Positions 1 to 64,000 of a stretch of 64,000 nucleotides of DNA are shown here, piece by piece. A program made the position numbers and the translations under genes. The notes under the pieces were generated by a model. That model was not told the DNA's origin. It was given only the letters and a program-made list of their open reading frames with translations, and ran no database searches. This DNA is from Imbricaverruca yamaguchii (lineage: Eukaryota; Arthropoda; Thecostraca; Neoverrucidae), in NCBI GenBank assembly GCA_034440575.1, contig JAOTOL010001563.1:1-64000 (forward strand), given 5' to 3'. Numbering within the stretch: the first letter of the stretch is position 1; the number at the start of each line of letters is the position of its first letter.

Positions 1-190
1 GGACTTGCAGGAGCAGCTGGCTCTCTCGGATACCAAGTTGGGCAACATGATCAAGGAAGATGAATCTGCGTGCATCCGTCGTCGTCGATCACCGAGCTGA
101 TCCGCTGCATCCGCTCCCAGGCGGACAGCCCCTCATCACCGGCCTGGCTGCCAAGGACATGACGGCCATGCAGCTAGGTCTGGCACACGG
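1..190 (+). CDS. NOP58: NOP58 exon (NOSIC region), frame-disrupted
   Basis: Encodes the stretch from [18 protein letters not shown] through an [19 protein letters not shown] segment to [19 protein letters not shown]. These pieces lie in three different frames: frame of base 2, then base 60, then base 85, then back to the base-60 frame by about 132. At least three 1-base indels are therefore present relative to the family. The donor after CAC-GG or CAC-AG leaves phase 2, which joins correctly to exon 2. Because the rest of the gene is intact, consensus sequencing error near the window edge is the simplest explanation; genuine decay is possible. Three further partial copies of the exon end follow downstream, so the donor actually used is uncertain. 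Confidence 0.7.
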
Positions 191-3100
191 GTGGGTGTTA
201 GACGGCCTCATCCCCACTGGCCTGGCTGCCAGAGACATGACGGCTATGTGGCCGGAGTCTTGGCACACAGGTGGGTGGACAGCCTCATCACCGGCCTGGC
301 TGCCAAGGACATGACGGCCATGCTGCGGCTGGGTCTCGCACACAGGTGGGTGTTGGACAGCCTCATCACTGGCCTGGCTGCCAAGGACTTGACGGCTATG
401 TGGCCAGGTCTGGCACACAGGTGGGTGGTAGGTCCTGCATGTGGGTGTGGGTAGCGGGTCTTGTGGTCCTGGCTACGCCGTCGTTTGGCTCTAGGTGTCA
501 AGGTTTGCCAGTATCTTCCGGTTTTGGTCGGTCTCAAATTAGTCTGGTGTTTTTTTTAAGTTGATTTACCGGCTTAGTGTGAAATTGTGGGGTACCAGGT
601 GGTTCGGGCTGGGGTTCCCGTCGTTTGGGTTTTAGCTCGTTCAATCCATGCGCGGGGCACAAACCCCAGCGTTGGAAAAGTGGCCCTTTTTTGGAACTTT
701 TGCAATCAAAAGATTATACACTCCGGAAAAAATACACTCCTTGCATTGCTGGATGAAGACATACTTAACTAGCAAGACAGCTAGATGTCATTATACAATA
801 GTGATAACTTGGGTGGAGAGGAAAATTAAGTCATACTGGGTCCCCCTACCACATGAAGTTTCCAGTATAATTGAGGATAATACACATTTGTTATTTCGAG
901 TCATCTGTAGGCACATTCAAGAGGAGGCAGGAGTAAAGCCAAAAATGAGATGCCAGCCAGATTAGAAGAATATCAGTTTGCTAGCATGCACAAGTACAAC
1001 ATATGTCAATGGATGGCAAAATATGGATCACTGCAGTCTGAATATGATCTTAATGCCACTGAACATTCCATATTTCACAACATTCCATCTTCCATATCAT
1101 TCCATAACATTCCATTTGTGCATGTGCGATTTATGGTGAGTGCAGGTGAATTAATAAACAGCCACCAGTGCATCCATGTGTATGTTCTCCATTTGTGGAC
1201 AAACCTCAGAACAGAGTCCAGATGTGCTCAGAAGAATGTATGGATGAACACCAAGAGCTAGAGTGGCATCCACACAACTGGTAAGCCACAAAGTGTAGCA
1301 CTTCCCCCAAATCTCCAAAATACTGGTGGATATGAGCCATGTTTTGCTACAGCATAGGAATTGTCATGGGCACTATTACTTTTCCACACATGTTTTACAC
1401 ATTTTGCCTCCATGAAGCATACAAAGGTATTAGGTTTGGCTAAGTTATGCTAGATTTTTTTTTTTGTAAGTTATCCATTCATCAAATTCCTTTCGGAATC
1501 ATTCAGGAATATATAAAAAAGTTTTTGAATTTTAAAAAACACTCGGGCTAGCATAGGCTGTTTGGTTAGCATAGGCCATTTACTTTTAATTTCTTAATTC
1601 ATTTTAATACTTTTAATTAATTGCTTATAAAAAATTTATTAAAAAAGATTTTCTTGCATCCAGTTAGGCTGCAGCTTTTTCTTCATTTATAACATCACAT
1701 TTCATGGTATATTTCCCAACCAAACCCGAGCCACTTTTTTGGTGTCATTTTGCTACCCAACTGCACTTGCCAAAAAAATGTGCAGTCACATCATGTAAGT
1801 ACCTACATTATGAACATATTCATAATCATTGCACGAAAAAATAAATTTCAAGAAATCAAATCACCTTAAACTGCAAATTTGTCCATTCAGAAAGTCAGAC
1901 CAGAAATGTTAAGAGTATAATGGTATTCAATGGAGAATATGGACAGGATGCACCTAATAATTCCTGAACATTTCATGAAAGCACAAATAATGCTTGAATG
2001 CATGCATATCTATAATATCTGCAGTCAATGTGCACTGAAGAGGCCCAGCCCCCATTTTGAAAGAAAAACATTCACGCTTCAAAATTAAAGTGAAAGTGAA
2101 AACAAAATTTTGAAGTGAAAACAAAATTTTCCAGACAAAAGCAAAGCAATCAGTTTTGTTCATTTCTACGCTTGTCGGCAAAACATCGCAGCAATTAATA
2201 TTATCATGTCCTGCTCCTTGTATTATCTGAAGATTTCCCGTCACACAACACAAGCTTACAGCTTTGGTTTATCCAAATCAATAACTCGAATTACCGCGAA
2301 GATATTTGATATAGGTAAGTAGGTAGGTACCTACATAGTCAGATAATACAACCTCTAATACCTCGAGCCAAACACGCAGTCAATTCCTTCCAGATGGCAG
2401 CGAAAAACTTTAAAGAAAATCCTTCATTGAATAAAAAAAACCACTACGCTCCGCTAACCAAATATAGGAATTCACCTTCACCAGCCCGACCGGTTCGTTC
2501 TTGGATTCAATGAGTTCACCGCTCTCCATCTCCCACTCCGGCCGGAGCTATTTGAACCATTGCCACGAAAAGCCATGGATAATGCATTTCTTCTTGGTTC
2601 CTTGGAGAATGATATGTTCCGCATCAATTGGGATGGATAAAACTGTTCATATTTATATTATTAAGCAGTCAGGAGCGATGTACATAAAAGATATCGGAAG
2701 GATTTTCCACATGAAAATTGCCTGAATGGTACCAAAACGTTCCTAAAACCTGCTAACACTTTGCTCCAAAATGAAGACCCATAGAACCAGAAATTTCACC
2801 TTCTTTCGATTTCATGACTTATATTGTTTCCGAATTTCATCAACAAGCGGGAATAGTTGCATTCATGCCACTCCGACCGCGAGGTTTCCCCCACTCCGGA
2901 CAAATTCAGATTTACGTGTGTTGACCTAATTCTCTACACTCTTATAAGCCTCATTCTGATCCAATGATTAATTTCTTCCCACAGTCCTGATTATTATTAA
3001 TTGAGAAAAAAGTTCCCTGTAATTCTCTTGGCAATTTTCTCTAACTTATTTTTATTTTTGGTATTTCATAGCAATCATGGCGCGAAATGAGACGCTAATT

Positions 3101-6100
3101 TCCGCTCGTCCGTGACGATAGTCTGTTTTACAGCAGCAATTTGCCCGCCCGTCTAGTCGCTTTTCATCCTTCCAAATCATTCCTTGCTTCTACTAAACAT
3201 TCCAGACATGAACTAAAAGTGCATTGAAATACATTTAATATTAATAAGGATTGACTTCAATATTTTTTTCAGCTTTCTCATTTGAAAAAAAAAAGAAAAT
3301 TTCATCGTGGAGAGAATAAAATATTTTAGACGGATTGTTTTAGTATAACTTTCCTTCAACCATTATATATTCCGAAACCCATATCCCGAAGTAACATTTT
3401 AGACCCTCCCATTTTAGACCCAGCGGTGCACGAACGTCCTGCTCTCGAGGTATGTTGTGAATTTGTATTAGTTATGCGGTGTTGGTACCTATGCTAGGAG
3501 TGGCGGGTATTGATATATAAACTTGGTTGACATCGATTAAGTATACTTTTGTGTTCATTTTCTCTACCATTGCTCAGGAAGTTGCCTTATAAGTCATTCA
3601 CGTAACGTGGATGACTTCAGACGACGATGTGTGGTGGACCCCATCTGGTTGTCTGTGAGACACTAGGATAAGAACCTAACAAATTACTTAAAGGCGTTTT
3701 ATTCTTGAGGAAGAAGAATTATCGGGTTATTTTACGACGCATTCAACCGCAAGGTCGCATAGCGCCGCCACCCTATATCACACCGATTGGTCGTGGGTGG
3801 ACTGCAAATGCCGCCGGCCGTGAGATTCGAGTCCCACGCTCCACCATCTAGGCTACCGAGGCCCCTGGGTTTTTTGTTCTTCATTCCAGGAGACATCACT
3901 GCATTTTCAAAATTTATACACTTCGTTATATATAAAATGTATATACTCCGTTACTTGGTGCTTCAACATACACCCCATAATTTGGCAAACTAGGAAATTA
4001 TACACCCCATAACATAGTGCCTCTCAAGATTATACACTCCATACTTTGGCAAGCCAAAAAATTATACACTCGAATCCAAGACTGAGAAGTGAAAATCCAA
4101 CACTGCCTGTAGCCCATGGCCCTTGAAACATGAAGCTAAAGTCTCGGAATCATGGTCTGGGCTTCTCGATAACGATATAAACCTTTTTTGTCAAAATTAG
4201 AGGGCGTGTGGCGATTTGTCCCGAGAACATCCAATAATGGATCTTACGTCTGGCAGCACAATTCCAAGTGCAGGCTCATCTGCTCCGCCTCTGATCCGAT
4301 CTCTGATGCAGTATCAGCTTATAGTATTGATGTTTGTATCATCATCATAAATATAGGTATCTCTCAAAACCAATGAAGTGGGCCGCGGTAGCTCAGTTAG
4401 TAGAGCGTCGGACTCTTGATGGCAAAATTCTGGGTTTGAATCTCACAACAGACGGCATTACCAAGTCTACTCACGCCCAATCGGCGTGAGAGGTTGGTGA
4501 TGCTATATAACCGAGCGGCTGAATGCGTCATAAAAAAACCAACATTCTTCCTCTTCAAACTTCATGAAAAGGTAGCCATAAATACACTATCAACTTCAAA
4601 TTGAGTTTGATGAACTACCAAAATGTGGTAAAGTAGTCTAGGGGCAAGTTGCTCGTCTCCCAATCAAAGATTGTGGGTTCGAGTCTTACCCGTCCCTACC
4701 CTTGGCCCGCGACCAATCGACGCGAGGGGTTGGCGACGCGATATGACTGAGATGTCTACGTGTCGTAAAACCAATAACCGATAAGCTACACAAATGTTAT
4801 CAAGGACATTATTTCCATGGCGACTTTGGACATCCGCATGTACTCGTTTCAACATCTCGCACATAACGAAAAACCAGTATTTTAACAGTGCTGAGTCATA
4901 TTCAATTGAATATTTAATTCCCTGGCATCTAAAACATACCTTGGCATATCGAGGAAATGGGCACCCGTACATTGTGCGCATCCCACGTCTGGTCTCGTAA
5001 GGTGTTTTGTGTAGGTGGAGACTGATCTTTGAGTCAAGTTGGGAATGTATGGGCAGCCAGGTGTGGTGCTGGATCAGGTCCAGAAGCAGAAGAGATATGT
5101 GGAATATGAACTGTATGCAGTGAAATATTTTCAGGGGAAGATACGGTGGGTGGAAGATACGACTTACCGAATATTGAAGTGACATTCTTTCCACGTAAAA
5201 TTTATAATATCCTGCTTATAGATGTGTGTTTGGGCAGTGTATTTGTGCTTAATGCGGTGTTATGGTCGTAACTTCAAAATGATCATGCACATGCTCATTA
5301 TGGAGAGTAGAACGCCCACATCCCATAATAGAGTTCCAAATATTGATACTACCCGCAATGCAGTGCCTTTTACTATTACTCCTGGACACAAAAACGCCGT
5401 TAAAGATAACCATGACTTTACCTTGTAGCACCTTACAGATGCAGACAAATTGTGAATAGCATGTAAGTTCATGTAAGTTTTGACATCCCAGTATTCATTT
5501 TTTAAAAAACATTTTTTGACCGCCCGCCCTCGCCTGCCTGTTCCAGTCTGGTGTGTTGTGTACCGTCCGCCCGTCATGTGCCGACTCGCCTGCCTGTTCC
5601 AGTCCGGTGTGTTGTGTACCGTCCGCCCGTCATGTGCCGACTCGCCTGCCTGTTCCAGTCTGTCGCGGTACAAGCTCAAGTTCTCGCCGGACAAGGTGGA
5701 CACGATGATCGTGCAGGCTGTGTGTCTGTTGGATGAGCTCGACAAGGAGCTGAACAACTACGTGATGCGCTGCCGGGAGTGGTACGGCTGGCACTTCCCC
5801 GAGCTCAGCAAGATCATCACCGACAACATACCCTTCATCAAGGCCGTCAACATGATGGGTGAGTGGCGACACCGAGTGGCGCCGAGTGTCCGTGGTCGGC
5901 AGGGTGGTGGGCCGGTGAGCGGATTGGGAGTCGCTAATTATGTTTCATTGGGTTCAAGATGAAGCACAACTTCCGATAACTCAGACAATACTCGTTCTAC
6001 CTCTTGGGTGCTCATTTTTTCTCCAATTTTACAAGGTTTGCACCATCATATGAGCTTTCCCTATACCCTGTTTGCAAGATGATAGAGTACATCCTTGAAT

Positions 6101-9100
6101 TGGATTGAAGGCATTCTGATAGGTTGTGTTGCGAATGTGCTTAGACGTGTGTTGAATGTTCGGTGTATAGTCGTCAATTTACTTGCGGTACCATGCAGTA
6201 TTTATATAGCAATGTTTTTTTAGTAGTATATTTATACAGCAGTATTTATTGTAGCTGTGCTTTTAGCTGTACCAACACTGGATTATATGATATGGTTTCA
6301 TAGCTACGGGTCGCCGGTATGTCATGTACAAATGTACAGGTTTTATTGATGTGCTACTTCTTTTTAACTCTACTACCAGAGGTGTTCATTTTTGATGATT
6401 TTATGAATCATTGCATTTTTATCGAATAAACTAACCTACTGTAAAGCCAACGAGTATAACATCAACTATAAATAAGCTTGCTCATATCCCCTGAGAGTGG
6501 CTACTATTCGTTTCTTCAGTATCATCCACTGGCACAAGTGGTTACTCTCTATGTGTTTAGTACCATACACTGACACTGCCTTTCCTGGGACACAATTAAT
6601 GTTCACACATCTTCAATAGCATTCACTTACCTGCAGCTATCCCTTGGGAAATGGGTACCCACTGTGCATTTAGCAGCACCCACAGACCTGCCCTTATCCC
6701 CTTGGAAGTAGCTTCCCTTCCATATTTTGGTTGGTTGGCTGGTTGGTTGGTTGATGATGATGAATTGGGGTTTAGGGGCGTGTCAACTGCCATGGTCATC
6801 TTGCACTATTGGTTGGTTGGTTATTGGCTTTACAATACATCGACTGTTAAGACATGTAGCGTCGCTAATCTCTGGCCGATTGGTCGCGGGCGAAGGGTAG
6901 CGACAGGTGAGACTCGAACCCACAACCTTTCAATTGTGAGACGAGTAACTTACCCCTAGGCTACTCGTTCCCCTTCCATATTTTGTGAATGCAGGAAGTA
7001 TAGTTCGCGGGGTCTGCTTTCAGGGATGAGGACAAACGCGTTGGACTTGGACTTCTCGGATTTTCTCCCGGAGGATGTGGAGGATAGCCTGAAGAAGGCT
7101 GCCGAAATATCGATGGGGACCGAAATCTCTGACTCTGACGTTGACAACATCCGCCATCTGTGTGAGCAGGTGTGTAGCGCGCCGCCTCCGTCCCCGACCG
7201 TCCGTGGTGCTCGGTGGCACCGTGCTGCAGATGTCGGCACGTCACATCGTGACAATCCGGCCCACGGTTGCCCGCGTGCTAATGATTTGCTGATTAGTAT
7301 TTCAAACAGCCTCCTCGAATTTACTAAGTACTCAGTAAAAAAGCAAATTTACGCAATGCTTTGGTCTGATCACTTGTTTTCATTTGCGTGGGCTGGACAC
7401 CAACAACACTAAATGTTCATTGTGTGCAACATATCACACAAAATTTGGCTTGAAGAAGCATCTGTTGGTTCTGATTTTCCATATGCAGCCGATCAGCTAC
7501 GCTGGCTTCGAAGCCGGTGCATAATCGGTTATGTAAACTAGGCGCCGCATGACCAACGCAGTCGATGCGCCCCTAAGCCCAAACAATGAAAACACATAGC
7601 CGGTTATTCGGCCACGCAGGCGTCAACGCGGGCCTCTGTGCGCATTGTGACGTAGCCCTCTGTGCCCTGCCGTAGATTCTGGAGATCACCGAGTACCGTG
7701 CTCAGCTGTCCGAGTACCTCAAGAGCCGCATGGCCGCGGTGGCTCCCAACCTGAGCGTGCTGGTGGGCGACATCGTCGGCGCCCGGCTCATCTCTCACGC
7801 CGGTCTGTCCAACATGTCACCACCATAGTCGTGTTGTAGATGGGTGCCGGTCTGTCCAACACGTCACCACCATAGCCGTGTTGTAGACGGGTGCCGGTCT
7901 GTCGAACACGTCAATACCATAGTCGTGTTGTAGACGGGTGCCGGTCTGTCCAACACGCCACCATAGCTCGTGTTGTAGATGGGTGTCGGTCTGTCGAACA
8001 CGTCACCGCCATAGTCGTGTTGTAGATGGGTGCCGGTCTGTCCAACACGTCACCACCATAGCCGTGTTGTAGACGGGTGCCGGTCTGTCGAACACGTCAA
8101 TACCATAGTCGTGTTGTAGACGGGTGCCGGTCTGTCCAACACGCCACCATAGCCGTGTTGTAGACGGGTGCCGGTCTGTCCAACACGCCACCATAGCCGT
8201 GTTGTAGACGGTGCCGGTCTGTCGAAACACGTCATGTGTAACACGTCACCACCATAGTCGTGTTGTAGACGGGTGCGGTCTATCCATCGTTTGTCGTGTT
8301 GTAGACGGGTGCCGGTCTGTCGAACATCGCCCACCATAGTCGTGTTGTAGATGGGTGCCGGTCTGTCGAACACGTCACCACCATAGCCGTGTTGTAGATG
8401 AGTGCCGGTCTGTCCAACACGTCACTACCATAGTCGTGTTGTAGATGGGTGGCGGTCTGTCCAACACGTCACCACCACCACCATAGTCGTGTTGTAGACG
8501 GGTGCCGGTCTGTCGAACATGTCACCATCACCGCCATAGTCGTGTTGTAGATGGGTGCCGGTCTGTCGAACACGTCACCACCATAGTCGTGTTGTAGACG
8601 GGTGCCGGTCTGTCGAACACGTCACTACCATAGTCGTGTTGTAGACGGGTGCCGGTCTGTCCAACACGCCACCATAGCCGTGTTGTAGACGGTGCCGGCT
8701 GTCACGTACCACCTAGCCGTGTTGTAGACGGTGCCGGTCTGTCGAACACGTCACCATAGCGTGTTGTAGGGTGCCGGTCTGTCGAACACGTCACCACCAT
8801 AGTCGTGTTGTAGACGGGTGCCGGTCTGTCGAACACGTCACCACCATAGTCGTGTTGTAGACGGGTGCCGGTCTGTCGAACACGTCACCACCATAATCGT
8901 GTTGTAGACGGTGCCGGTCTGTCGAACACGTCACCGCCATAGTGTTGTAGATGGGTGGTGGTCTGTCGAACACGTCACCATCATAGTCGTGTTGTAGATG
9001 GGTGCCGGTCTGTCGAACATGTCACCCCCATCACCGCCATAGCTGTGTTGTAGACGGGTGCCCGTCGGCAGCTGCCACGCCGCTCTGTGACACTGACGCC

Positions 9101-12100
9101 ATCCCTACCATACAAGTTTATACTGGTGTCCAGCAGCTGTTCAACACTGACGCCATCCCTACCATACAAGTTTATACTGGTGTCCAGCGGCTGTTCAACA
9201 CTGACGCCATCCCCACCATACAAGTTTATACTGGTGTCCAGCGGCTGTTCAACACTGACGCCATCCCCACCATACAAGTGTGCATTAGTATCCAGCAGTA
9301 TTTCCCACGCAAAAGATTGCAAACGTGCAATTACGGTGCAACAAATATTCACTGAATAACTGAAGTGGAGCACCCATATTAGAGCAGTGCCATAGTACCC
9401 CTTGCATTTGCACGTGACGTGTGTGCTGTCTGGTACCTGTGTGATGGATATTATGTAGCGGTAGCTTATCTACGTGATGCCTTACCTGCCCGGAGGTGAC
9501 GTACATGTGCGGTGGTGACCAACGTGTGTGGTGAAACTTTTCCTGTGGTGGCACCTCTCCTGCATGGGAGTACTTTCCCTTGTGTTGTGGTGACTTACAT
9601 GTGAGTGAGTGATAACTCATTGTTGTCCTGCGTCGGCCAGGCTCGTTGATGAATCTGGCCAAACACCCGGCGTCAACGGTGCAGATTCTTGGCGCAGAGA
9701 AGGCGCTGTTCCGTGCGCTCAAGACCAAACACGACACGCCCAAGTATGGTCTCATCTACCATGCCCAGTTCGTGACGCACGCCTCCACCAAGCTGAAGGG
9801 CAAGGTGAGGTGGCGCTGCTAATGCTGACGATCCCAGGATGGTGTGTCATGCCTAACGCGTGTGACCCGGGCATGAAACAGGGCTGGTACCACTCTTGAC
9901 CCTGGGATTACTCGTGAGCTGGCATTGCTCGTGACCATGGGGTGGAGGTATCGCTGGTTACGGTCGCCACCTGGAGATGAGCGCTGAGTTGGCAATACTC
10001 GTCACCCTGGGGTGAAATTACACTGGCTACGGTTGCCACCCAGAGGTGAGCACAGAACTGCAAATACTCGGGACCCTGGGGTGGGCCGGCGCTTGTTGCG
10101 GTCGCTACCCTGAGGTAGATTGGGTGTGCTGAGCGTGGACTGCCCCGTACTATGCTAAGCGGAAGTTCTTCATCGTCTTTATGATAATAGGAATTATCTT
10201 AGGCTTTTTGACCACCCTTTTACCGATGCCCAATTCTCAACTTATCTTGTTTCATTCTCGATGCTGGATAGTGCCGAATGGGTTTCCCGTCTCGGGTACC
10301 AGGGCGTCGGCAGCTCAGTGGTTAAGCTGAGCGCCTGACAAGCTAGAGGTACCCCAGGTTGGATTCCCCATGGCACCCGTCCTTTCTGCCAGGGTGAGAG
10401 GCAGGCGACGCCATATGGCCTCAGCTGCTAAGTGTGTCGTAAAGTCACAACCACCGTCTGCGTCTCGGCGGGTTCACAGTTGAGGCCGCTGGGCGCAAAA
10501 TGGCCCTAGATGTCGACGCGCCCTTAGACTCCAATCCTGGGCGCTAAATGACCAACCATGGTCGATGCGCCCTAAAACCACAATCACACACACACACATA
10601 AGACTCCAATCCACCACCACAGTTGAGGCCACCACACAGTGTCCGTTGAGGTGGTCCCAGCCGGTGAGATCCGCCCGCCTTGGGCGCCGACTGACGGGCC
10701 TCGTGTGCGGCCAGGCGTCTCGCATGCTGGCCACCAAGGCGGCGCTGGCGTGCCGCGTGGACGCGCTGGGCGAGGATCCGCCCGCCTGGGGCGCCGACTG
10801 ACGGGCCTCGTGTGTGGCCAGGCGTCTCGCATGCTGGCCACCAAGGCGGCGCTGGCGTGCCGCGTGGACGCGCTGGGCGAGGATCCGCCCGCCTGGGGCG
10901 CCGACTGACGGGCCTCGTGTGCGGCCAGGCGTCTCGCATGCTGGCCACCAAGGCGGCGCTGGCGTGCCGCGTGGACGCGCTGGGCGAGGATCCGCCCGCC
11001 TGGGGCGCCAGGGCGCCGACTGACGGGCCTCGTGTGTGGCCAGGCGTCTCGCATGCTGGCCACCAAGGCGGCGCTGGCGTGCCGCGTGGACGCGCTGGGC
11101 GAGGATCCGCCCGCCTTGGGCGCCGACTGACGGGCCTCGTGTGCGGCCAGGCGTCTCGCATGCTGGCCACCAAGGCGGCGCTGGCGTGCCGCGTGGACGC
11201 GCTGGGAGAGGACGCCAACGCCAACGCCCAGCTGGGCGTGGAGCACCGGGCGCGCCTGGAGGCTCGACTGCGCATGCTCGAGGAGGGAGGCAGCCTGCGC
11301 CTGTCCGGCTCGGGACGCAAGTCGGCCAAGTTTGACAGCTACCAGAACAAGAGGTGAGCGGATGGCACCTTCTCTGAGCACCTGCCGCAGGCGTTGGTCA
11401 ATGCGCGTTGTAAGATGGCTGAATAGCTGTGCGAGTCATGCGGTCCTGCCAGTGGGAGTGTGCAAGCGTTAAGCGTCAGAAATTTTTCGCGAAATACGGT
11501 CAGTGAGTGTAGTTATGCCATTTATTGACCACTGAATCGACATGCTCCCCCAAATGAGTATCGGTATCGCGCTTGTTTGTGACTTGTTTGTGAAGTATTT
11601 GTGAATATCATGCGTGTCTTTGAATCATTCATACCTCGTTTATAACTATTTCTTGTACAAGTGTCATGCTTATGCTCATAATAACGATTGCGGGATCCGG
11701 GATTGCGATTACGAACATTCCGTAGCGCAATTCCAGACGAAGGGATTACCTATGATGTGCTATGTTATCAAATGCCAGTTTATAGCATGTGTGTTTGTAT
11801 CGTTATCGTTTATTATATCAGTGTCACCGAATTAGGTACATCTCGGAACACGCAAAGCCGGAACAGTAATGTAAGTTATTTCTTCAAAACTGGGTTTGCA
11901 GGACTTTATATCTCTAACACAAAGCTGTGTGGTGGTGGCAATATCAACCATCAATTTCGCCGCTTTTCATACTTGACATCACTAAGAATTATTTTAATTC
12001 TCTTAATAGTGGGCAAGCTGCAGTAGGTTTGTTGGTAAACTTCCTATTGTATGATGCAAATGAGACATGATATTTTCAAAAGATGACTTTGTTGTGAAAA

Positions 12101-15100
12101 TGCCCATGAATGTGCATAATGTAATATGTATATATGCAGTATGTATGTAGGTATGCACCCATGCATGCATACATACATACATACATGCATGCATGCATAC
12201 CTACAGTGGATAGAAACTGTGGCATTTTGTATTGTGGGCGTGTTGTGTATCACTTTCCATGTGATGTAATTTGTAGAGTTGTCGCCGACTAATCAGCAAG
12301 GTGTCGCCACCTGGTCTCGGATCTGAGCGCCCCGTCCCCTTCGCGCATATGAGGTGTTGTATTTGTGCTGTCTTGATGTGGGTGTCTGCCACTGTTGTAC
12401 TGTATGTGTGTTGTATTTGTGCTGTCCTGATGTGGGTGTCTGCCACTGTTGTACTGTATGTGTAGTATGTGTGCTGTCTTGATGTGGGTGTCCGCCACTG
12501 TTGTACTGCATGTGTTGTATTTGTGCCGTCCGTATGTGGTTGTCCGCCACTGTTGTACTGGTGTGTTGTATTTGTGCTGTCCTTATGCAGGTGTCTGCCA
12601 CTGTTGTACAGTATGTGTTGTACTTGTGCTGTCTTGATGTGGGTGTCTGCCACTGTTGTGCTGTATGTGTGTTATATTTGTGCTGACTTGATGTGTGTGT
12701 CTGCCACTGTTGTACTGTGCGTGTTGTGTTGTGTGTGCTGTCTTGATGTGTGTGTCTGCCACTGTTGTACTGTGCGTGTTGTGTTGTGTGTGCTGTCTTG
12801 ATGTGTGTGTCTGCCACTGTTGTACTGTGCGTGTTGTGTTGTGTGTGCTGTATTGACGTGTGTCCGATATCCTGCCGTTGGTGACACGTCCATGGCGCTG
12901 TTTCCAGTGAGATAAAGCAGTACCCGGCGGCGGCCGACTCGACCGTGCCCAGCTCCGTGAAGCGAAAACTCCAGGACGGCGAACAGGGCTTCCCCAAGCG
13001 GGTGAAGTCGTCAGGTAGGTGCCGCCCCCGGGCTCGCTCAGCCGGCCGGTCCACACCCGGGGCATTCGCCGTACCCGGCCAGTCCACACCCGGGGCATTC
13101 GCCGTACCCAGCCAGTCCACACCCGGGGCATTCGCCGTACCCAGCCAGTCCACACCCGGGGCATTCGCCGTACCCGGCCAGTCCACACCCGGGGCATTCG
13201 CCGTACCCGGCCAGTCCACACCCGGGGCATTCGCCGTACCCAGCCAGTCCACACCCGGGGCATTCGCCGTACCCAGCCAGTCCACACCCGGGGCATTCGC
13301 CGTACCCAGCCAGTCCACACCCGGGGCATTCGCCGTACCCAGCCGGTCCACACCCGGGGCATTCGCCGTACCCAGCCGGTCCACACCCGGGGCATTCGCC
13401 GTACCCAGCCAGTCCACACCCGGGGCATTCGCCGTACCCAGCCAGTCCACACCCGGGGCATTCGCCGTACCCAGCCAGTCCACACCCGGGCATTGCCGTA
13501 CCCAGTACACATAAAAATACCCAGCCAGTCCACACCCGGGGCATTCGCCGTACCCAGCCAGTCCACACCCGGGGCATTCGCCGTACCCAGCCAGTCCACA
13601 CCCGGGGCATTCGCCGTACCCAGCCAGTCCACACCCGGGGCATTCGCCGTACCCAGCCAGTCCACACCCGGGGCATTCGCCGTACCCAGCCAGTCCACAC
13701 CCGGGGCATTCGCGACCCAGCCGGTCCACACCCGGGGCATTCGCCGTACCCAGCCGTCCACACCCGGGGCATTCGCCGTACCCAGCCAGTCCACACCCGG
13801 GGCATTCGCCGTACCCAGCCGGTCCACACCCGGGGCATTCGCCGTACCCAGCCAGTCCACACCCGGGGCATTCGCCGTACCCAGCCGGTCCACACCCGGG
13901 GCATTCGCCGTACCCAGCTGGGTACACTGAGGCACTGGGCTAAACTTATGCCAGACGCTGATAATTTTAGCTTCGGTTGTCGCTCATTGTGAAAGAATAA
14001 TGCCGCCGTATCGCCCTTGAAGACGATTGCGTTAGTTTTCAGGCGAGGCACTTGGGCACCCAGTTTATCTCAATTGTTATTTTTCGGGTGCTAATCTTGC
14101 TTGTGGACGAAATTATAAAGTGCATAAATAGTTCCTGCATTCTGCAACTTGCAGTTATATTTTCCGGCTCGCAATATTTGCCATTTTGGTATAAGATGCT
14201 TTCAACTAACTCCTCAACACAACTATCATGTCTACAGAGAGAAGAGGGGAGTAGCTATGGGGAACCCTGCAGCTGCAGCGGTGGCGATTTTGTACCTGGA
14301 CCGTTTTGAGAGGGAAGTCTTTGAATGTGCTGAAATTCGACCTCTTTTTGTCCCGGCACTTAGATGACTATGGTTGCAAGGTAAAGCGTCACCTCGCTTT
14401 CGTGAATTACGTGAATAGCACACATCATAATTAAGTGTACTTTTGACATGACTGGGGAGGGGGAGGGAGCCATTCCTATGATGGATACCCTGATCACTCT
14501 CCGAAAGTAACCCCAAGTATGTGTACTCGACATAATTGTACATCAAGCCAAAAATGCCTGAATAATTTTAGATTACATATCGGCCCACCCTAAGCACACC
14601 AAGTTAAACTTAGTGAGGTCACAATTCATGCGGGCAGCGAGGTTGTCTTCGGACGAGTCTGCGAGACTACAGAGTTTCAAAGTGATCTCAGATCTTTAAA
14701 AGAATCGGTTATCCTCTTGTGTTCATCAATAGGATTCAGAGGTAGATTGAAAAGGGGTTGCATTTGGTACGAAAGGACAAAAAGGCGAAGTTCAGTGTGA
14801 AGCTTCGTATCGGTTTAATAGCACATTGAAAACAGCTTAGTAGACTCTCACTGATCCCCCTGCCCCGATGGAAACCGAACGTGCTATACTTGTTTAGTTG
14901 TTTAGGCCGATGCTATACTATACTTGTTTACTTGTTTAGGCCGATGCACTGGCAATAGTGTGGTGTATGAAATTGTAAGTCGTGTGGTGCTAGTTATATC
15001 GGCAAGAGCAAACGACCTGTGCGATTGCGATTTAATAAAAAATGTGCGTAGTTTTTTTATAAATAGAACACCCGATACTCCACTGGGGGACTATGCTAGA

Positions 15101-18000: not shown

Positions 18001-18204
18001 TTGTGCTGAACTTTACTGATTGTGCTGTTATTTTGTGATTAATCTGTTTGTTTCCGCCGCCGCGTGGACCACCCTTCCGACAACGGAGCGCCGTCAGCGC
18101 CCCTACCGGCCGCTGAAGAAATCACTGCGGCGCCGTTTAACAAGCAAGGAAGAGAGCGGGTTCGAGCCCCGCCGGTCGCCGATCGTTTTACCGTCGCCGT
18201 CATC

Positions 18205-23774: not shown

Positions 23775-23810
23775 CCTAGGAATTCCTCTTTCACTTACTG
23801 ATAAATGAGT

Positions 23811-26800: not shown

Positions 26801-27437
26801 CTCTGGTGTCGGGTGTGCTTTTGTAAGTAGACAAGGTGTTCGATCTTTTTGTTTACCGACGCAAACATCGATTTTTACTGCCGAACTGTATGTCATTCTG
26901 CAAGCCCTCTATTTTATACAGAAAGACCGGTCCACAAAACACGTGGTTTTCGCAGACTCTTTGAGCAGTCTCCTAGCACTGAACACCTTTAACCAGGATA
27001 ACCGACTTGTTCGGAGGATTACCAAAGTCGTAAAATCCCTAGATGACGTCGGCAGAAATATCGTGTTCTGTCGGATTCCCAGCTATGTTGGTCTCGTGGG
27101 AAACGAAGCTGCCGACATTACCGCCAAACACGCCATTGGTAATGGCCGCGTGGTCCGTCTACAGCTCCCTCCAAGGGATCTATACCCCACTATATTATCA
27201 AATGTACGGTCAGAATGGCAACGAACCTGGAACTCCAAGTGTAGTAAGCTCAGTGTTTTAAAACCGACACTAGGAACGTGTCTATCCTCTCACCGAACGA
27301 AACGCGGGAAAGAAGTAATGCTCTGTCGATTGATGATAGGTCATACATTCGCAATACACAGCTACATGCTTACCGGTGACGACACCGACTTCTATGTCCG
27401 CGCTGCTCTTACCCGCTTACCGTGTGCCATGTTTTAG
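23811..27437 (+). pseudogene. I-clade LINE, ORF2 (endonuclease, reverse transcriptase, RNase H), degenerate
   Basis: Begins near ATGAGTAATATTCTACAGTG (ILQWNCRGV, then a stop). The APE endonuclease at 23870-24512 has VVICLQETKLS, LILCGDFNAHH and a TSDHFPAW end. A linker at 24536-25168 has PVPWWSDKCQDALRARKKAF. The reverse transcriptase at about 25270-26500 has WRKALVVPICKPNKTGK, IDGVPQGRI and the catalytic FVDDF. RNase H at 26760-27200 has IYTDGSKSASGVG, FTAELYVI, FADSLSSLLAL and GNEAADITAKHA. RNase H downstream of RT is typical of the I clade and relatives. Several frameshifts, stops and one retroposon insertion inactivate it. Confidence 0.9.
25542..25596 (+). mobile_element. Ultra-short retroposon copy 6, inside LINE ORF2
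   Basis: ATGGGCGCTAAATGACCTTG, then TAGTCGGCGCGCCCTTAAGC, then CCAAATAATCAATCA. Flanked by GAAACGATGCCATA (25528-25541) and GAAACGATGTCATA (25597-25610), a 14-bp duplication with one mismatch. Confidence 0.93.
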
Positions 27438-28167: not shown

Positions 28168-28550
28168 CCATCGGACGACACGCCGGCGCCACATCATGAG
28201 TTGGTGGAGGACACGCTAGCGCCACATCACGAGTTGGTGGATGACACGCCGGCGCCACATCATGAGTTGGTGGAGGACACGCCGGCGCCACATCACGAGT
28301 TGGACGACACTCCGGCGCCACATCACGAGTTGGTGGACGACACGCTAGCGCCACATCACGAGTTGGACGACACGCCGGCGCCACATCATGAGTTGGTGGA
28401 GGACACGCCGGCGCCACATCACGAGTTGGTGGAGGACACGCCGGCGCCACATCACGAGTTGGTGGACGACACGCCGGCGCCACATCACGAGTTGGTGGAC
28501 GACACGCCGGCGCCACATCACGAGTTGGTGGACGACACGCTGGCGCCGTC
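28168..28550 (-). repeat. 33-bp minisatellite made from the 3' end of the KXD1 coding sequence, about 11 copies
   Basis: On the minus strand each unit reads GGCGCCRGCGTGTCGTCCAC, then CAACTCGTGATGT. The final KXD1 codons are GGC-GCC-AGC-GTG-TCG-TCC-ACC-AAC-TCG-TGA, so the array repeats the last nine codons and the stop codon into the 3' UTR. Some units lack 3-6 bp. Confidence 0.92.
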
Positions 28551-34490: not shown

Positions 34491-34495
34491 CCAGC

Positions 34496-34860
<365 letters not shown>

Positions 34861-36870: not shown

Positions 36871-37076
36871 GTCATACGTAATGCTGCAAAACCGTGCGGT
36901 TTCCCGATGGGCGAATAAGTCGTATTATTGCGACTGTTCGTAACGCCATCAAAACGTTGCATCCATATCCAGCTGTATATTTCACCAGTGCGGCATCTCT
37001 TGCCTATATGCGGCACATTCGGTTACATATCTAGTGTAAACAACACTACGGCAGAAAATAAAAGAATACCGCCTAA

Positions 37077-50650: not shown

Positions 50651-53600
50651 GTGAGTCAAGGACGAATCTTAGCCGCCGCTCATGTCAGTGTGGAGGAGAG
50701 CATTCTGGGGTGCAGAGGTGCGGCGCATGCTGTAGTTGATGTTGACAGGTTGTGAGGAGATTGCCTGTCAGGATACCTGTTACCTTCTGGCGCGTGGTGA
50801 CCGGTACCGTGACCCCTGGCCGTGTTCTCAGGTGAGGTGTGGGGTGACGGTACAAGAACCCCCGGGCGTTGGGTGGCTGTGTGACCGGTACCGTGACTCC
50901 TGGCGCGTGTTCTCAGGTGAGGGCTGCCGGTACAGTGACCCCTGGCCGTGCTCTCAGGTGGGGTGCTGTGTCGTGACCGGTACCGTGACTCCTGGCCGTG
51001 TTCTCAGGTGAGGTGCTGCGCGGTGACCGGTACAGTGACCCCTGGCCGTGCTCTCAGGTGGGGTGCTGTGTCGTGACCGGTACCGTGACCCCTGGCCGTG
51101 TTCTCAGGTGAGGTGCTGCGCGGTGACCGGTACAGTGACCCCTGGCCGTGCTCTCAGGTGGGGTGCTGTGTCGTGACCGGTGCCGTGACCTCCTGGCCGT
51201 GTTCTCAGGTGAGGTGCTGCGCGGTGACCGGTACAGTGACCCCTGGCCGTGCTCTCAGGTGGGGTGCTGTGTCGTGACCGGTACCGTGACTCCTGGCCGT
51301 GTTCTCAGGTGAGGTGCTGCGCGGTGACCGGATCGTCAACACGCCGTACGAGGTACAGATGAAGAAGAACGTCGAGTGTCGCGTGCTATGCAACTCGGTC
51401 AGCAAACCCATTACCTGGATGCCCGAGGACACCAACGAGGTCATCGGACGGATACGCCACGCCTACTACGTGCACCTGTCAGTATCTGCTGCAGTCAAGC
51501 TGCAGATGGGGGGGGGGGGGGCTTGATTAGCTGTTGGGCCCCTAACACAGGTGGTCTGTGTCGATAGTTGGCATTGGTGGAGAGTACGCGTCTCCATTTC
51601 ATTATCGATATGTTCCCGGAGCATTCTGCACCCGGCACCCTGTCCATGGGAGCACGTGCATTCATTTGTGCGTGCATATGAATGCACATGTTTGGTGTTA
51701 CGTGTATGTGCACCAGGCCTCAAACTTGTCTGATCCATATGTGCTAACCCTATGCGGATTTGTCAAAGTTGTCGCCTACGGCCGCATCATCCTGTCTGGG
51801 TGGTCCGACCTCATATTGTCCGACCTCATATTGTCCGACCTCATACCTCGTAGTCCGAGTATCCTTACTCACTGTGTGCGACGTGTATCGTCCAGTCCTC
51901 GCAGCCAGGCTTATCACGACGGCGTGACAGTAGTATAACCTGCTGTGCGCCGACGATGTTCTGTCCACTGACTGTGCGTGCTGTGCGTGACGGTGCTCCA
52001 CAGACTGGTGGATAACCTGCGGCACGCCGACGATGTTCTGTCCACTGACTGTGCGTGCTGTGCGTGACGGTGCTCCACAGACTGGTGGATAACCTGCTGT
52101 GCGCCGACGATGTTCTGTCCACTGACTGTGCGTGCTGTGCGTGACGGTGCTCCACAGACTGGTGGATAACCTGCGGCACGCCGACGATGTTCTGTCCACT
52201 GACTGTGCGGGCGGTGCTCCACAGACTGGTGGATAACCTGCCGTGTGCCACCCGGTTCGAGATACTCGACTCGAAGGAGGAGCAGCTGGACCGCGGATAC
52301 CGGCTGGGCTATGTTGCCGACAACGGCGACGTCTACATCAACAACCACCTGCGACTGGTGCTCTACTACCACACCGAGGACAAGTGAGTGTCGCCCTCTG
52401 GCGCAGCCGCGCACAGCGATGAGACCAAATTGTCTCTTCTCTCCTTGCAATGGGCGCTACATGACCAATGTAGTCGATGCGCCCTTAAGCCCTAATAACT
52501 AACTAACTCTCCTTGCAACTTTGTCCTCATCTTCCTTCTTTAAGTTTTCCTATGACTGGTACGAGCACTTGCCTCCCCCGCCCCATTCATCCATTAGCGT
52601 TGGTTTGGACCCCTTGCGGACGCATGTCGACATCAGTCAGCAGGCGCTTGGCGTGTAAAAGAGGAAGTGCACGAACGGTGATCGACACGGACGGATGTGT
52701 GGAGTAGCGATTACGAGTGGAGCTGGCCGTGCTGTTTTCAGCCTGAGCTACCGCGTGGTGCGGTTCGAGGTGGAGGCCAAGTCGGTGGACTCGTCGCTGG
52801 TGGAAGCCGCTGACGACGGCTGCACCATCGGCAGCGAGCGGCGCCAGATGAAACTGGTTAAAGACGTGCGTACTGGCCCCACTGTCGTCAGTAGTGTGTG
52901 GTTAATGACGTGCGTACTGGCCCCACTGTTGTCGGTAGTGGTGAAGGACCTTCGTACTGGCCCCACTGTTGTCGATAGTATATGGTTGTTAAAGACGTGC
53001 GTACTGGCCCCACTGTTGTCGGTAGTGTGTGGTGGTTAAATATCTGTGTACTGGCCCCACTGTTGTCGGTAGTGTGTGGTGGTTAAAAATCTGCGTACTG
53101 CCGATCGCTGATTAGCGACACACCAGTCAGCCCCCTCTGGCTGAACCGAGACTACACGGTCAACTTAAGGCGTCCGTTATAGGCAGGCTTGCCAGTCAGA
53201 GACACGCCCGTATTTGCTGGTGATGGACTCGCAATGGTGTTTTGTGGTGTGTGACATTAACTTGTCATGTGTGACATTGTACTATGGTGTGTGACATGTA
53301 TGTGACCTGTTAGTGTGATCTGTGATGTGTGACATGAAGCCTATGATTGTGCGTGATCTGTGGCATTGAACCATGCATGGCATTGATCTTTGACTAATGC
53401 ACGACCTGTGCCATGTGATGTGTGATATGTGAACTTTGATGTGTGACCTATGCTATGTGACACACAGTGATCAATGCTTCGTGAAATAGAGTGAAATATA
53501 CCACTTTCTAAGCACTGAATCGACATCCCTCCCAACGAAGTATCGACGTCGTGTTTCGTGATGAGTTCATAAAGATTTCATGTTGAATTTCGAACATTCT

Positions 53601-56600
53601 TGTCGATAAGTGTCCAGCTTATATTCACCATTGCAGATTATAAGACACCAACATCTCTGAACACAATTACAGGTACAAGGATTACATTTTATGTAGTCTG
53701 TTATACAACATCAATTGAAAAGGTGTAGCGAGATTGCATGTGAGGTGGCACTGGTACTAGCCCCAGGATGTATGTGAGGTGGCACTGGTACTAGGCAGAT
53801 GAGTCATTCAGTGCGGCGACCTCGTGACCGGGTCAGGGCGGCCGGATACGTGACGTGGTGAGGCATGTGCGGGATGGGCCAATCATCGGTCGGGGGTGTC
53901 TAGCGCGGGAGCGGTGTCGAGTTGAGGTGGGAGGGTGTGAGCTGGGCTGGCCCAGTCTGGTTACTGCGAAGCGCTGAGGAATACACGGTCCTGACGTCAA
54001 AGTTTTCTCTTTGTGAACTATAAAAGGATGGGCATTTTGCATCGTTGTCACTAAAATAGTTATCCTTAGATTAGGTATCTCAAATCGAAGGAAAAATGCA
54101 CATATGAGTATGCTGTTGGATTGTGTTTGAAAAACCCATCAGTTATGCAAAGCGACATCGTTTCCATGGCAAATTTCGATATCCTGTACTCGTTTCGACA
54201 TATCACACCTAACGAAGAGCGATTATTTTACGCTGGTGACATATGATCTGTGATTTGTGAGATGCAACCTGTTACGTGTGGCATGTGATGTGTGACAGAT
54301 ATGGGTTGTGTTGTATGTGACATGTGAACTATGACGTGTGGGATGCAACCTATGATGTGTGACCTGTGACCTGTGATGTGTGGCCCAGTCAAAGACTTGA
54401 CCGTTATCTGCGTACTGTAATGCATGACCCAGGTTGAGGCTTGACTGTTTCTTCACTTACTGTGATGTATGACCCAAGTGGGGACTTGACTGTTGTTCGT
54501 TTGCTATGCTGTATGACCCAGTCAAAGACTTGACTGTTACCTGCTTGCTGTGCTGTGTGATCCAGGTGGAGCCTTAACTGCTTGTTGCCTACTGTGATGT
54601 GTGACCCAGGTGGGGATCACACTGTTCTAGGCTTCCTGTGATGTATGACCCATGTGGGGATCTCGCTGTTCTAGGCTTGCTGTGATGTATGACCCAAGTG
54701 GGGATATCACTGTTCTAGGATTGCTGTGATGTTTGACCCAGGTGGGGACCTCACTGTTCCAGGCTTGCTGTGATGTTTGACCCAGGTGTGGACCTCACTG
54801 TTCCAGGCTTCCCGTGATGTATGACCCAGGTGGGGACCTCACTGTTCTAGGCTTGCTGTGATGTTTGACCCAGGTCGGGATCTCGCCGTTCTAGGCTTGC
54901 TGAATGTATGCCCCAGGTGGGTATCTCACTGTTCCAGGCTTGCTGTGATATATGCCCCAGGTTGGGACCTCACTGTTCCAGGATTGCTGTGATGTTTGAC
55001 CCAGGTGGGGACCTCACTGTTCCAGGCTTCATGTGATGTTTGACCCAGGAGGGGACTTCACTGTTGTTCGCCTACTCGGTGGAATTTCGCAGCTCGATGG
55101 GAACTATGGTGTAGATTATGCAATACTGCACTGAGCATTGCTAATAATATTGTGAGAATAGTCTTCGACCTTATGCTCATTATAACTAAAAGATAAAATT
55201 AACTGTGTGTGAATTGTGACATGTGAAGTGACCTGTTTTGTGACATGTGAAGTGAAGTCGCACATGTGACATGTGTGACCTGTTTTCGGTGATGGGCAAG
55301 ATGTGAACTATCATGTGTGGCATGTGAACTGTGCTGCACAACCTGTGATTAGTGCTGTGTGAGATGTGAACTATGACGTGTGGCATGTGAACTATGTGTG
55401 AAATGTGACATGTGAAGTATGATGTGTGACCTGTGATTGGTGCTGTGTGAGATGTGAACTATGACGTGTGGCATGTGAACTATGTGTGAAATGTGACATG
55501 TGAACTATGTGTGACCTGTGATTGGTGGTGTGTCAGATGTGACAGATCGTCATATGACGTGTGACATGTGGCTCGTGGTGTGCGACCCAGGCGGAGACCC
55601 GAGTGCTGTTCACCTACTCGGTGGAGTGGCGCAGCTCGACTGTGCGCTGGGCGTCGCGCTGGGACATCTACCTGGCCATGTCTGGCGTGCAGATCCACTG
55701 GTTCAGCATCATCAACAGTGTGGTGGTGGTGCTCTTCCTCTCCGGTGAGTTGCTCTGGCAGTCCAGGCCGTCAGTCAGCCAGTCAGCCGGCTGTCAAAGC
55801 TGGCCATGGTGCAAGGGATGGCTGATTACCTAGTGGACCAGTGGATCGGGCTGGGAGATTGAAGACATTAAGGCCTGATCGGTCAGTCATGTGTTAGATA
55901 GGTCAGCACCCCGTCGATCCGCTTCCTGACCCTGATCGGTCAGTCGTGTGTTAGATAGGTCAGCACCTCGTCGATCCGCTTCCTGACCCTGATCGGTCAG
56001 TCATGTGTTAGATAGGTCAGCACCTCGTCGATCCGCTTCCTGACCCTGATCGGTCAGTCATGTGTTAGATAGGTCAGCACCCCATCGATCCGCTTCCTGA
56101 CCCTGATCGGTCAGTCGTGTGTTAGATAGGTCAGCACCCCGTCGATCCGCTTCCTGACCCTGATCGGTCAGTCATGTGTTAGATAGGTCGGCACCCCGTC
56201 GATCCGCTTCCTGACCCTGATCGGTCAGTCATGTGTTAGATAGGTCAGCACCCCGTCGATCCGCTTCCTGACCCTGATCGGTCAGTCATGTGTTAGATAG
56301 GTCAGCACCCCGTCGATCCGCTTCCTGACCCTATCCAGTGGATGCCTCGGCCTTTTTATCCCGTCCCCGGAACAAGGCTTTGTTGTACCCGCACTGGTTG
56401 TGGACAGTGCCAGCAAAAAGCCCGAACAGGGCTAGTTTTGCGCATACCAGTTGTTTCCCCTTGTTTTTAACATGTTCAAATCAGACAAAACTGGCAGACA
56501 ACATTCAATCATGGGTTTTCACCATTTTTTTTTGGCATATAGCCAATGCCTTGGATTCGCTACCGACCTTCGGCTATGTCAGGCTGATGATTTTGGTCCT

Positions 56601-59573
56601 AGTGGCACATTAGGGGTGATAGCCTCTCCATCATTCAGGATATAGTAATGGTTGAAGGATTTCAGTCTTGTTTTGTCTTGCTATGGCATCTACCCTTTAT
56701 AGACTAAACCCAGGTGTCTTCTGCAGCTCTCATTATGCCTTAGATCTGTATGTATTAATGTATTTATGTCTCACTAGCAGAGTAACAAACCCAGAATTAA
56801 ATACTAACCTGCTTTGAGCTCTTCTCATTTATTATCTTTAGTTATATTTGGTTATATCGTACTTTTTTTTCCTATAAACTAAATATTTCTTCCGCGAGTT
56901 TTCTAGTTTGATTGGTTCCAACTCCTCCAATATATGCCCTCTAATATCTTCCACACAAAAAATTGTTTGTTTGTGGTATTTCTCTACTTATTTTACATCA
57001 CATCGTCACACATCACAGTTGGTACCATCAGCCATGACTTTTGGGGTGTATCCAGAGGTGAAGTTTGATAACTATTGGTGGGGCCCAGTACATGAAGGGC
57101 ATGAGTATTGCCAACTTGGCTGGCATGGCCCACCCCATGAGGCCCTATCCAAAGAGAGCAAGAAGTTGGTGGAGGAGAGGCAAGGATGATGGGATCCAAG
57201 CCCCACCAAAAGTATCAGGAACTCCTCAGTGCGTGCAACCCATTTATACATGCAGAGCAGAAACTACGTCGAAGAGATGCAAGGCATAACATAAAATATG
57301 ATAAATATGGCTATAGCAAATACATTGACATAAGACATGGCTAATAAGACAGACACGGAACATAAAATCAGGTTTAGTTCTGTCCGCTCTTGTGACAAAG
57401 GTCGGCAAAGCTAGCTTTTCCGGCCGGTTTGAACGATAGTTAGAGCTGGCTGATGCCACCTGCTGGACAAGGCCTGGCAATCCTGATTGTGGACACCATT
57501 ATTGGTCACAATCAGACCCGTTTGTCACGTTTGATCACATTATTAAATGTCGATCAGTTCACACTGCCACGTGATGACTTCATGGGCGCAAAATGACCCT
57601 TGATGTCGACGCGCCCCTGAACTCCAATCCACCACCACGTGATGACTTCGAATTTGATTATCCGGCCAATATATATATGGAGATTCCACCGAGGACTAGG
57701 TTGAGTTTTCTTAGAACTATTGGAAGGCAAAAGTTTAGTTCATGTTCTCAAAACACACTTGCAGCATTGCAAACTGAACGCTTTTCAACGGCGTGGTCTT
57801 TGCAACGACCTATCCAGATTCATTACCAAATAAGCAAGCATCATTCTTCAAGATTTGGCTATTTTAGGGCATCAGGTTCTGGGCTTTCTATTATTCTCCA
57901 TACGTTATTTGATGTCAGATATGCTCTCGAGTTTTGGCATTTTGTCGGGGACGAGTTGCCTAGGGGTAAGTTGCTCGTCTCACAATCGAAAGGTTGTGGG
58001 TTCGAGTCTCACCTGTCGCTACTCTTCGCCCGCGACCAATCGGCGTGAGAGATTTGCTACGCTACATGACTCAACGGTCGATGTGTCGTAAAACCAATAA
58101 CGAACGTTTGGCATTTTGTCCAGGGATATTGTTCATCCGTGCAGTATTTATATTGAGAAATATGAGCGTCGCGTTGTGTGCTTTGTTCCCGATTCCACTT
58201 CGTCAAGGTGGAATGCGATATTGAGCATATTTGTCCCCATCTGTATGCGGTTATTTTGGCTAGATTCCTGTATGAGGGTACTTGGGGAAAAGTTGCCACA
58301 TTACACATCTCCAGTACCAGAAGTTCTGAAATGAAAACATCTGTTGGGGAAGTCTTGATACAAGCGCATTGCAAAAGCATTGCCATGCGACGTCATTTTT
58401 CTTAAACACCAAAATTGTGTGCGGTGTGAATCTCCTCGAGATGAACTTAATGTGCCTGGAACCACCGGAAGGCATTTCGAATCTGAAGCGATGCGCGCTG
58501 CTAGATCCGACTCGTGATGCGCCCCACAAGGCGTCCTACTGAAAACTACGACCTGTATATCCGCCCTCGAGTCTTGGCCGAGAACTAGACAACCGCCACA
58601 TGCACACCATAGCTCATAACATGCTGCCTCCGAAGACGTGTCAGGCGAGCAGATTCCCAAGGTGTGTTATCGAGAAGAGGAAGACATTGTTGAGCACCTA
58701 AATAGGCAGTGCAGACACAGGAGTTGACCGAGGTGCGCGGTGGTCGGAGGTTGTTAGATACGACATTTTGTGAGAGGAAATAATAAATGTGTGTGTGTGT
58801 AAATAACAGACTTACGGGCAAGGTTAGATTTATGTTTTGATATCCTAGATTTGGAGAGAAACCCGTAAATGGCATTCCAATTTGAGAGGTACTTTTTCCC
58901 CATATCTGACAGGATATGGGGAATCTCCATGTCCTACTTCCAGGATCTCCATGTCCTACTTTGCAGTCGGTTTCGTCGTTTTTATCAAGCAGCAATCAGT
59001 TTGCAGTGATGTTCACACAACTCACATAGATCTTTTGGCAAAAGGGAGTGAATGATTTACGGAAGGGAAAATGCTGTAGATGACTGAACGTCCAGTACAA
59101 CGTCGTGTGTCCAACCCTGCGCACCAGCGAATCACCACGGCTCCGCAGTGTGCGCGACTTAACGCTGAGCCGCCGCCACCGCCGGCAGCCATCCTCACCA
59201 TGATCATCATCCGTACGCTGCGTCGCGACATCGCCAAGTACAACCAGGACGACAGCATGGAGGAGGCGATGGAGGAGACCGGCTGGAAGCTGGTGCACGG
59301 CGACGTGTTCCGGCCGCCGCAGCAGGCCAAGCTGTTCTGCGCCTTCATCGGCACCGGCGTGCAGCTCTACCTCATGGCGCTGGTCACCATATGTGAGTGC
59401 TGCTCCCTGGCTTTGGGTGTTGCTCACTGGCCGTGAGTGTTGGTCACCACCTGCGAGTGCTGGTCACCACCTGTGAGTGTGCCGCTCACTAGAGGTGGTA
59501 AATGTAAGGACCGAAAGCCAGGTTAGCTTTCCGGCCAGTATTTGGTGTATATACCGGTGTTTGAACTCGTCTG

Positions 59574-63344: not shown

Positions 63345-63606
63345 GCAGCGTCTGCTGGCGAGTGGAAGCTGCTGACTGGCAGAGTACACTGGCGGGTGGA
63401 AACTGCTGACTGGCAGAGTACACTGGCGAGTGGAAACTGCTGACTGGCAGAGTACACTGGCGAGTGGAAACTGCTGATTGGCAGAGTACACTGGCGAGTG
63501 GAAACTGCTGACTGGCAGAGTACACTGGCGAGTGGAAACTGCTGACTGGCAGAGTACACTGGCGAGTGGAAACTGCTGACTGGCAGAGTACACTGGCGAG
63601 TGGAAA
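63345..63606 (+). repeat. 34-37 bp tandem repeat, about eight copies, in TM9SF4 intron 8
   Basis: TGGCGAGTGGAAACTGCTGA, then CTGGCAGAGTACAC, nearly identical copies. No exon sequence is included. The remainder to 64000 has no recognised content. Confidence 0.93.
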
Positions 63607-64000
63607 CTACCTGCTCGTGTAGTATGTCAAATTGACTGACCCCTGAGCGCTGGGCAGGGGGCGGGGTCCACACAACACTGACCGGCGGCCGTACCACATG
63701 ACCCGCCACACCTGGCGGAAGTCACGAGGGGCCGTCGGCCGGCCAGCGGCACACAGCCGCTGGTTCAGCAGCTCAGAGCCTCGCACCAGCCGCTGTCATG
63801 TGGCGGGCAGCGGCTGAGAAGTTGAAATATTATACAGCTATAATTTGGCTACCACCGTTTACGCTAAAGCTACCGCCACAAGCCAGGTTTACTACACTTA
63901 AGAGTACAGTATCCTTATCTTGGTATGTGGAAGGGCATGAACTCTGTTATGCAGATTTATTGATTCATATGTTACCAAGTACACAGACGTCATGTTGTGA

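Follow-up and report, generated by a model that had tools for sequence, protein, structure and literature searches.

The DNA analyzed here, referred to as the window, comprises the first 64 kb of contig C1330 (G000:C1330:1-64000) in a barnacle genome assembly of 767,457,503 bp and 1430 contigs. It carries three genes, NOP58, KXD1, and TM9SF4, whose models were reconstructed exon by exon and match Pfam families PF01798, PF10241, and PF02990, respectively. The joined exons of TM9SF4 and KXD1 form open frames, as do those of NOP58 from position 5659 on. The nearest named relative of TM9SF4 is from Amphibalanus amphitrite (84%), with the next matches at about 62–66%; those of NOP58 are from Pollicipes pollicipes (83%) and A. 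amphitrite (80%), both barnacles. The initial 19.6 kb of the window is also covered by a second contig, C201 (67,661 bp), apparently the other allele of this region, given 98.4–99.7% identity in six array-free segments. The segment originally called NOP58 exon 1 is the tail of a ∼306-nt exon truncated by the contig start. It contains two frame changes (window 11–190) close to the start of C1330; since the exon is open in a single frame in C201, these probably reflect a contig-end error.

The window also contains several other elements. A 1587-codon open frame at 18043–22803 includes reverse transcriptase, RNase H, and integrase domains together with a protease match too weak to pass the Pfam cut-off, and appears to be an LTR retrotransposon-like element. 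Segments at 23844–27434 (an endonuclease match, with weak RT and RNase H matches) and 42728–43303 (an RT match) look like pieces of non-LTR retrotransposons. A 167-bp satellite occupies 33167–36964 as two inverted blocks (592-nt arms, 84% complementary), flanking long GT and TC tracts. Six occurrences of the 12-mer GTCGATGCGCCC, all on the + strand (7561, 10561, 17136, 48864, 49489, and 52473), perhaps represent a dispersed repeat. No Rfam families at gathering score and no tRNAs were detected in the 64-kb window.

Ten tandem arrays with units of 20–107 bp are associated with exon edges in the three genes: four of donor type, five of acceptor type, and one of stop-codon type. All ten had been described in the original prediction, and each was found where it had been placed. 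The accompanying statement that every array includes its own edge needs qualification: eight copy 9–62 exonic nt, and the arrays at NOP58 exons 2 and 4 copy only 4.

Four of the arrays lie in NOP58, all on the + strand. A 78-bp unit is repeated in four copies at 131–427, with the true donor after position 190, and GT is present at the donor position in each copy (assessed partly by eye). The exon 2 acceptor array (5529–5662; exon 5659–5858) consists of three copies of a 56-bp unit, and the exon 4 donor array (7799–9031; exon 7676–7802) of a 47-bp unit with 25 donor copies, including the true one. At exon 6 (11151–11353), an acceptor array at 10668–11212 has a 107-bp unit and five acceptor copies, again counting the true one. 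The longest exon-side homology is 60 nt at exon 1 and 62 nt at exon 6; the exon 2 and exon 4 arrays, with 4 nt each, merely reach the edge. Two arrays on the same strand within NOP58 introns, neither containing an exon copy, provide a comparison: nine copies of a 52-bp unit at 12354–12863, and 25 copies of a 33-bp unit at 13045–13918, beginning 31 nt past a donor. Three + strand frames remain open for ∼210–330 codons across the 33-bp array, making it a trap for gene finders.

Five arrays, also on the + strand, are distributed among eight exons of TM9SF4. The exon 2 acceptor array (50818–51331, TRF interval 50881–51331; exon 51309–51477) has a 50-bp unit and 10 acceptor copies including the true one, mostly in alternating variants, with up to 23 exonic nt. 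The exon 3 acceptor array (51935–52241, TRF interval 51935–52217; exon 52225–52383) has a 77-bp unit and four acceptor copies including the true one, with 17–25 exonic nt. Donor arrays are present at exon 4 (52855–53100; exon 52742–52865), where a 47-bp unit occurs in six copies including the true one, three with an intact GT and a longest exon-side homology of 11 nt, and at exon 6 (59379–59489, TRF interval 59393–59489; exon 59189–59392), where a 20-bp unit occurs in four copies including the true one, with up to 14 exonic nt. The exon 5 array (54316–55065; exon 55591–55744) contains 15 copies of a 44-bp unit that resembles the exon start, 12 of them with an intact AG, and its longest exon-side homology is 9 nt. 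The array stops ∼525 nt short of the true acceptor, although a degenerate copy of the exon (39/52) is found at its end. In KXD1, on the − strand, 11 copies of a 33-bp unit including the true stop (28173–28547) repeat the last 30 nt of the coding sequence and extend into the 3′ UTR.

Splice edges were scored by taking a 30-base segment with the edge at least 6 bases inside it and seeking an ungapped copy within 1.5 kb. A local copy matching at 22 or more of 30 bases was present at 9 of the 33 splice edges in the window, and none of the remaining 24 had a copy above 20/30. Boundary-spanning units occur at 9/33 splice edges; in seven of these the exonic part is 9 nt or longer. Copies are located on the intron side at all nine scoring splice edges, and for the KXD1 stop a 30/30 match was located on the UTR side, as had been proposed. 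The nine splice arrays together contain 61 decoys with an intact dinucleotide; use of 60 of these is predicted to shift the frame or introduce a stop, and one would stay open in frame. The further expectation that the coding sequence is unchanged while introns lengthen and gain decoy splice sites fits this anatomy.

Comparison with C201 revealed copy-number differences in five of seven arrays counted. Window/C201 copy numbers for the NOP58 edge arrays are 4/4 (exon 1), 3/3 (exon 2), 25/21 (exon 4), and 5/4 (exon 6), and those for three intronic arrays are 3/2, 9/5 (12354–12863), and 25/34 (13045–13918); an eighth, intronic array (9892–10083) is of equal length in both. Two of the four edge arrays and one of the four intronic arrays thus show no difference in copy number or length, and the two kinds act alike between haplotypes. 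The haplotype differences indicate that the arrays are live VNTRs. Two unit variants alternate in the NOP58 exon 6, TM9SF4 exon 2, and TM9SF4 exon 3 arrays (the last assessed by eye), which suggests growth by two-unit blocks.

Whether edges carry more arrays than expected by chance hinges on the null: the count is above expectation under constrained or founder nulls and not under plain coverage. The edge score reached by 9 of 33 edges is also attained by 31% of intron positions. The original prediction had called for a genome-wide comparison of TRF units with shuffled edges. Within the window, six of 33 edges fall strictly inside TRF intervals versus 8.7 in circular shifts (P = 0.88), with the TM9SF4 exon 3 and exon 6 edges lying 8 and 1 nt outside; array ends, however, occur within 65 nt of 12 edges versus 7.0 in shifts (P = 0.03). 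Arrays cover 26% of the sequence at 1–50 nt from an edge, 36–37% at 51–1000 nt, and 5% beyond 1 kb, and they occupy 27.5% of introns versus 10% of the DNA between genes. The arrays therefore gather near exons, with no maximum right at the edge.

Since later copies cannot take in an edge and the founding unit can, the founder null reduced every array to a single unit. For the window, these units were assigned random positions within 22 kb of non-coding sequence; the array lists were hand-curated with one row per TRF array (26 in the window, 24 outside). Edge arrays accounted for 10 of 26 in the window, versus 1.5 expected under uniform placement (0 of 400,000 draws) or 3.2 when matched for GC (P = 1.7e-4). 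Requiring at least 9 exonic nt gave 8 versus 1.3 (uniform, P = 1.5e-5) or 2.9 (GC-matched, P = 0.0025). When the NOP58 exon 1 and TM9SF4 exon 5 arrays were omitted, GC-matched placement gave 6 versus 2.5 (P = 0.022), or 6 versus 3.1 with half the background (P = 0.066). GC was matched on complete arrays together with their exonic copies, and the figures for the window are inflated by its post hoc choice. GC content is 0.61 in coding and 0.46 in non-coding DNA. Non-edge arrays with units of at least 30 bp have a GC of 0.517 versus a background of 0.439 (P = 0.018), and all 16 non-edge arrays pooled are not significantly GC-rich (P = 0.16). An artefact driven by GC alone was rejected, as GC matching halves the window excess and does not abolish it.

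Further edges were scored elsewhere in the same genome, giving 9/72 versus 9/33 in the window (Fisher P = 0.09). Edges in these genes were modeled excluding junctions in protein gaps, except for seven VCP edges placed by eye. No edge scored among seven in TM9SF4 exons 9–12, where coverage is 58% and mostly due to one giant array. Intron 9 (L006-L007, G000:C1330:65701-73652) consists almost wholly of a single array, in which a 51-bp unit is repeated 156 times with 97% matches. Neither of two upstream NOP58 edges and none of 17 VCP edges scored. Hits were obtained in TM9SF paralogues on C1123 (4/16) and C1318 (2/6, after excluding a junction scoring 12 and retaining one scoring 26 that carries the acceptor hit at 23806) and in four proteasome ATPase genes (3/24, all three in a PSMC2-like gene). 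A candidate on C1410 (L017, G000:C1410:2156340-2157611), labeled NOP56-like from a match to NOP58 at 42% identity, was unsuitable for this test, since its 417 matched residues lie in a single open frame and the gene is apparently intronless.

In three of the nine outside hits the copies are in tandem, include 9 or more exonic nt, and retain an intact site; the remaining six are weak, abutting, or degenerate. The clear cases are the C1123 donor at 13952 and acceptor at 17825 and the C1318 acceptor at 23806; on C1123 the unit measures 55 bp at a donor and, repeated about 67 times, 36 bp at an acceptor, and the C1318 acceptor has a 66-bp unit. The strict count is thus 7/33 splice edges in the window versus 3/72 outside. 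Boundary copies that have degenerated and lost the decoy AG are located 135 nt upstream of the C1123 acceptor at 14513 (reverse complement of L011-L013) and 1016 nt upstream of the C1261 acceptor at 6052 (L026), and are possibly dead mirages. The founder null applied to C1123, C1318, and TM9SF4 exons 9–12 gave 4/24 edge arrays versus 1.14 (uniform, P = 0.024) or 1.72 (GC-matched, P = 0.087), and with at least 9 exonic nt 3/24 versus 0.98 (P = 0.07) or 1.51 (GC-matched, P = 0.19). Across 11 gene segments, 18/66 edges scored where minisatellite coverage was at least 20%, versus 0/39 in the rest (Fisher P = 1e-4); the 20% line was set after the data had been seen, and coverage refers to introns for window genes and to gene spans for the others. 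Edge hits and minisatellite density in these segments have a rank correlation of 0.52 (P = 0.10).

Arrays on the intron side of exon edges, differing between haplotypes, are thus observed together with similar arrays in pure intron. We favor, with a probability of roughly 0.65, the interpretation that these are ordinary minisatellites born near exons, among which edge-spanning ones are tolerated, making them a barnacle version of the amphioxus "mirages", over a process aimed at the borders. In non-coding DNA, chiefly less than ∼1 kb from an exon, the genome would found and expand tandem arrays, whose units measure 12–107 bp in these genes, presumably by slippage or unequal exchange, and a founding duplication would sometimes happen to take in an exon edge. 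The copy beside the exon body would preserve the frame along with the genuine splice site or stop; with that copy intact, the others, located in the intron or UTR, would be free to vary like any VNTR. Duplications disturbing the exon would be purged by selection, and decoys are assumed to be neutral, being either ignored or removed by NMD. Arrays with longer units may favor GC-rich DNA, and since exon edges are GC-rich, edges would be struck more often than the average intron; both parts are partly borne out by the GC comparisons above. Besides the points taken up below in favor of border seeding, this reading has against it the pooled non-edge arrays, which are not significantly GC-rich, the arrays that are equal in both haplotypes, and TM9SF4 exons 9–12, where no edge scored despite 58% coverage.

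A systematic process at exon borders, which the original prediction had suggested from this pattern alongside retention through purging of exon-side changes, is a less probable but not negligible alternative. Exon borders would actively seed arrays, through a GC step, nucleosome or polymerase pausing, or R-loops leading to slippage or to repair that duplicates edge segments, and introns would grow from their ends. The founder excess (2–7 fold in the window and weaker outside, at 4/24 versus 1.14 or 1.72), the concentration of arrays within 1 kb of exons, and the proximity of array ends to edges all point in this direction, and the drop in coverage to 5% beyond 1 kb tempers our preference for ordinary birth. 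Evidence against seeding includes coverage that has no peak at the edge, the circular-shift result, and the 0/39 edges scoring in minisatellite-poor segments. In addition, the excess shrinks to 5–6 versus 2.4–3.1 (P = 0.02–0.07) once questionable arrays are omitted and the null is matched for GC or background, arrays with at least 9 exonic nt outside the window are only 3/24, and the window was selected because of the pattern. A broader reading of similarly low probability is that minisatellites in barnacles arise several-fold more often at exon edges than in matched intron DNA and that introns lengthen at their ends through repeated duplication of their own splice sites; this would be a general mode of intron growth common to amphioxus and barnacles.

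Assembly error and intron creation are both far less plausible. The position of the window at the start of C1330 and the two first-exon frame changes missing from C201 could suggest that the arrays are artefacts, but the copies bear structured variants in the form of alternating units, the arrays of NOP58 are found again in a second contig, with different copy numbers in five of seven, and the other exons join in open frames; an artefactual origin is very improbable. Intron gain by tandem duplication of an AGGT sequence, which had been brought up as an established route, has a published model and cases (PMC4974935), and TM9SF4 exon 2 begins with GTGAGG, close to its own upstream donor GTGAGT. 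Donor and acceptor contexts of the 16 introns are, however, no more alike than mismatched pairs (7.9/30 versus 8.5/30 shared bases, P = 0.87), and every array copies a single existing edge rather than both. We regard this route as the least probable of all. In the sections of PMC4974935 available, tandem duplication crosses an intron-exon boundary as in the barnacle arrays; unlike those cases, the 16 barnacle introns bear no sign of having been created in this way.

The preferred reading, ordinary minisatellite birth with edge-spanning arrays tolerated, connects these genes with the mirage minisatellites of amphioxus. Mirages were introduced in PMC117041 and are described in the globin, Adh3, TnC, and PGBD5 genes (PMC3087553, PMC3902484), the latter source adding PGBD5 and citing troponin C. 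As represented in the available portions of these papers, mirages share with the barnacle arrays repeats that span exon-intron boundaries at 5′ and 3′ edges, cryptic AG or GT in many copies, and concerted unit variants; their units range from tens to about 160 bp, compared with 20–107 bp here. Haplotype length differences are reported for mirages and are found in two of the four barnacle edge arrays covered by C201 (25/21 and 5/4). The barnacle arrays thus have the structural features of mirages. They differ in occurring in an arthropod rather than a cephalochordate, in having several arrays per gene, and in including one that repeats a stop codon into the 3′ UTR. According to the same partial texts, splicing of the amphioxus globin mirages was tested by RT-PCR, and somatic instability has been reported for the Adh3 mirage. 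Human genes in segmental duplications also carry minisatellite-type repeats at exon-intron boundaries, but the excerpt of PMC2812944 available describes transcripts supporting new introns or altered exons, whereas the barnacle coding sequence is unchanged. No report of mirages in barnacles was found in the literature searched; no barnacle genome study appeared by title among matches for barnacle tandem repeats and introns, and the available parts of the barnacle genome papers examined did not contain the wording "tandem repeat" or "satellite". As far as the literature searched extends, the occurrence in an arthropod, the density, and the stop-codon version are new.

For annotation of such genomes, these arrays are a warning that tandem decoys can adjoin true exons. 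What had been an oddity of a few amphioxus genes is extended to an arthropod, where it can be dense. Such genomes provide natural experiments on the choice made by the spliceosome among up to 25 near-identical sites and on the growth of introns by copying of their ends.
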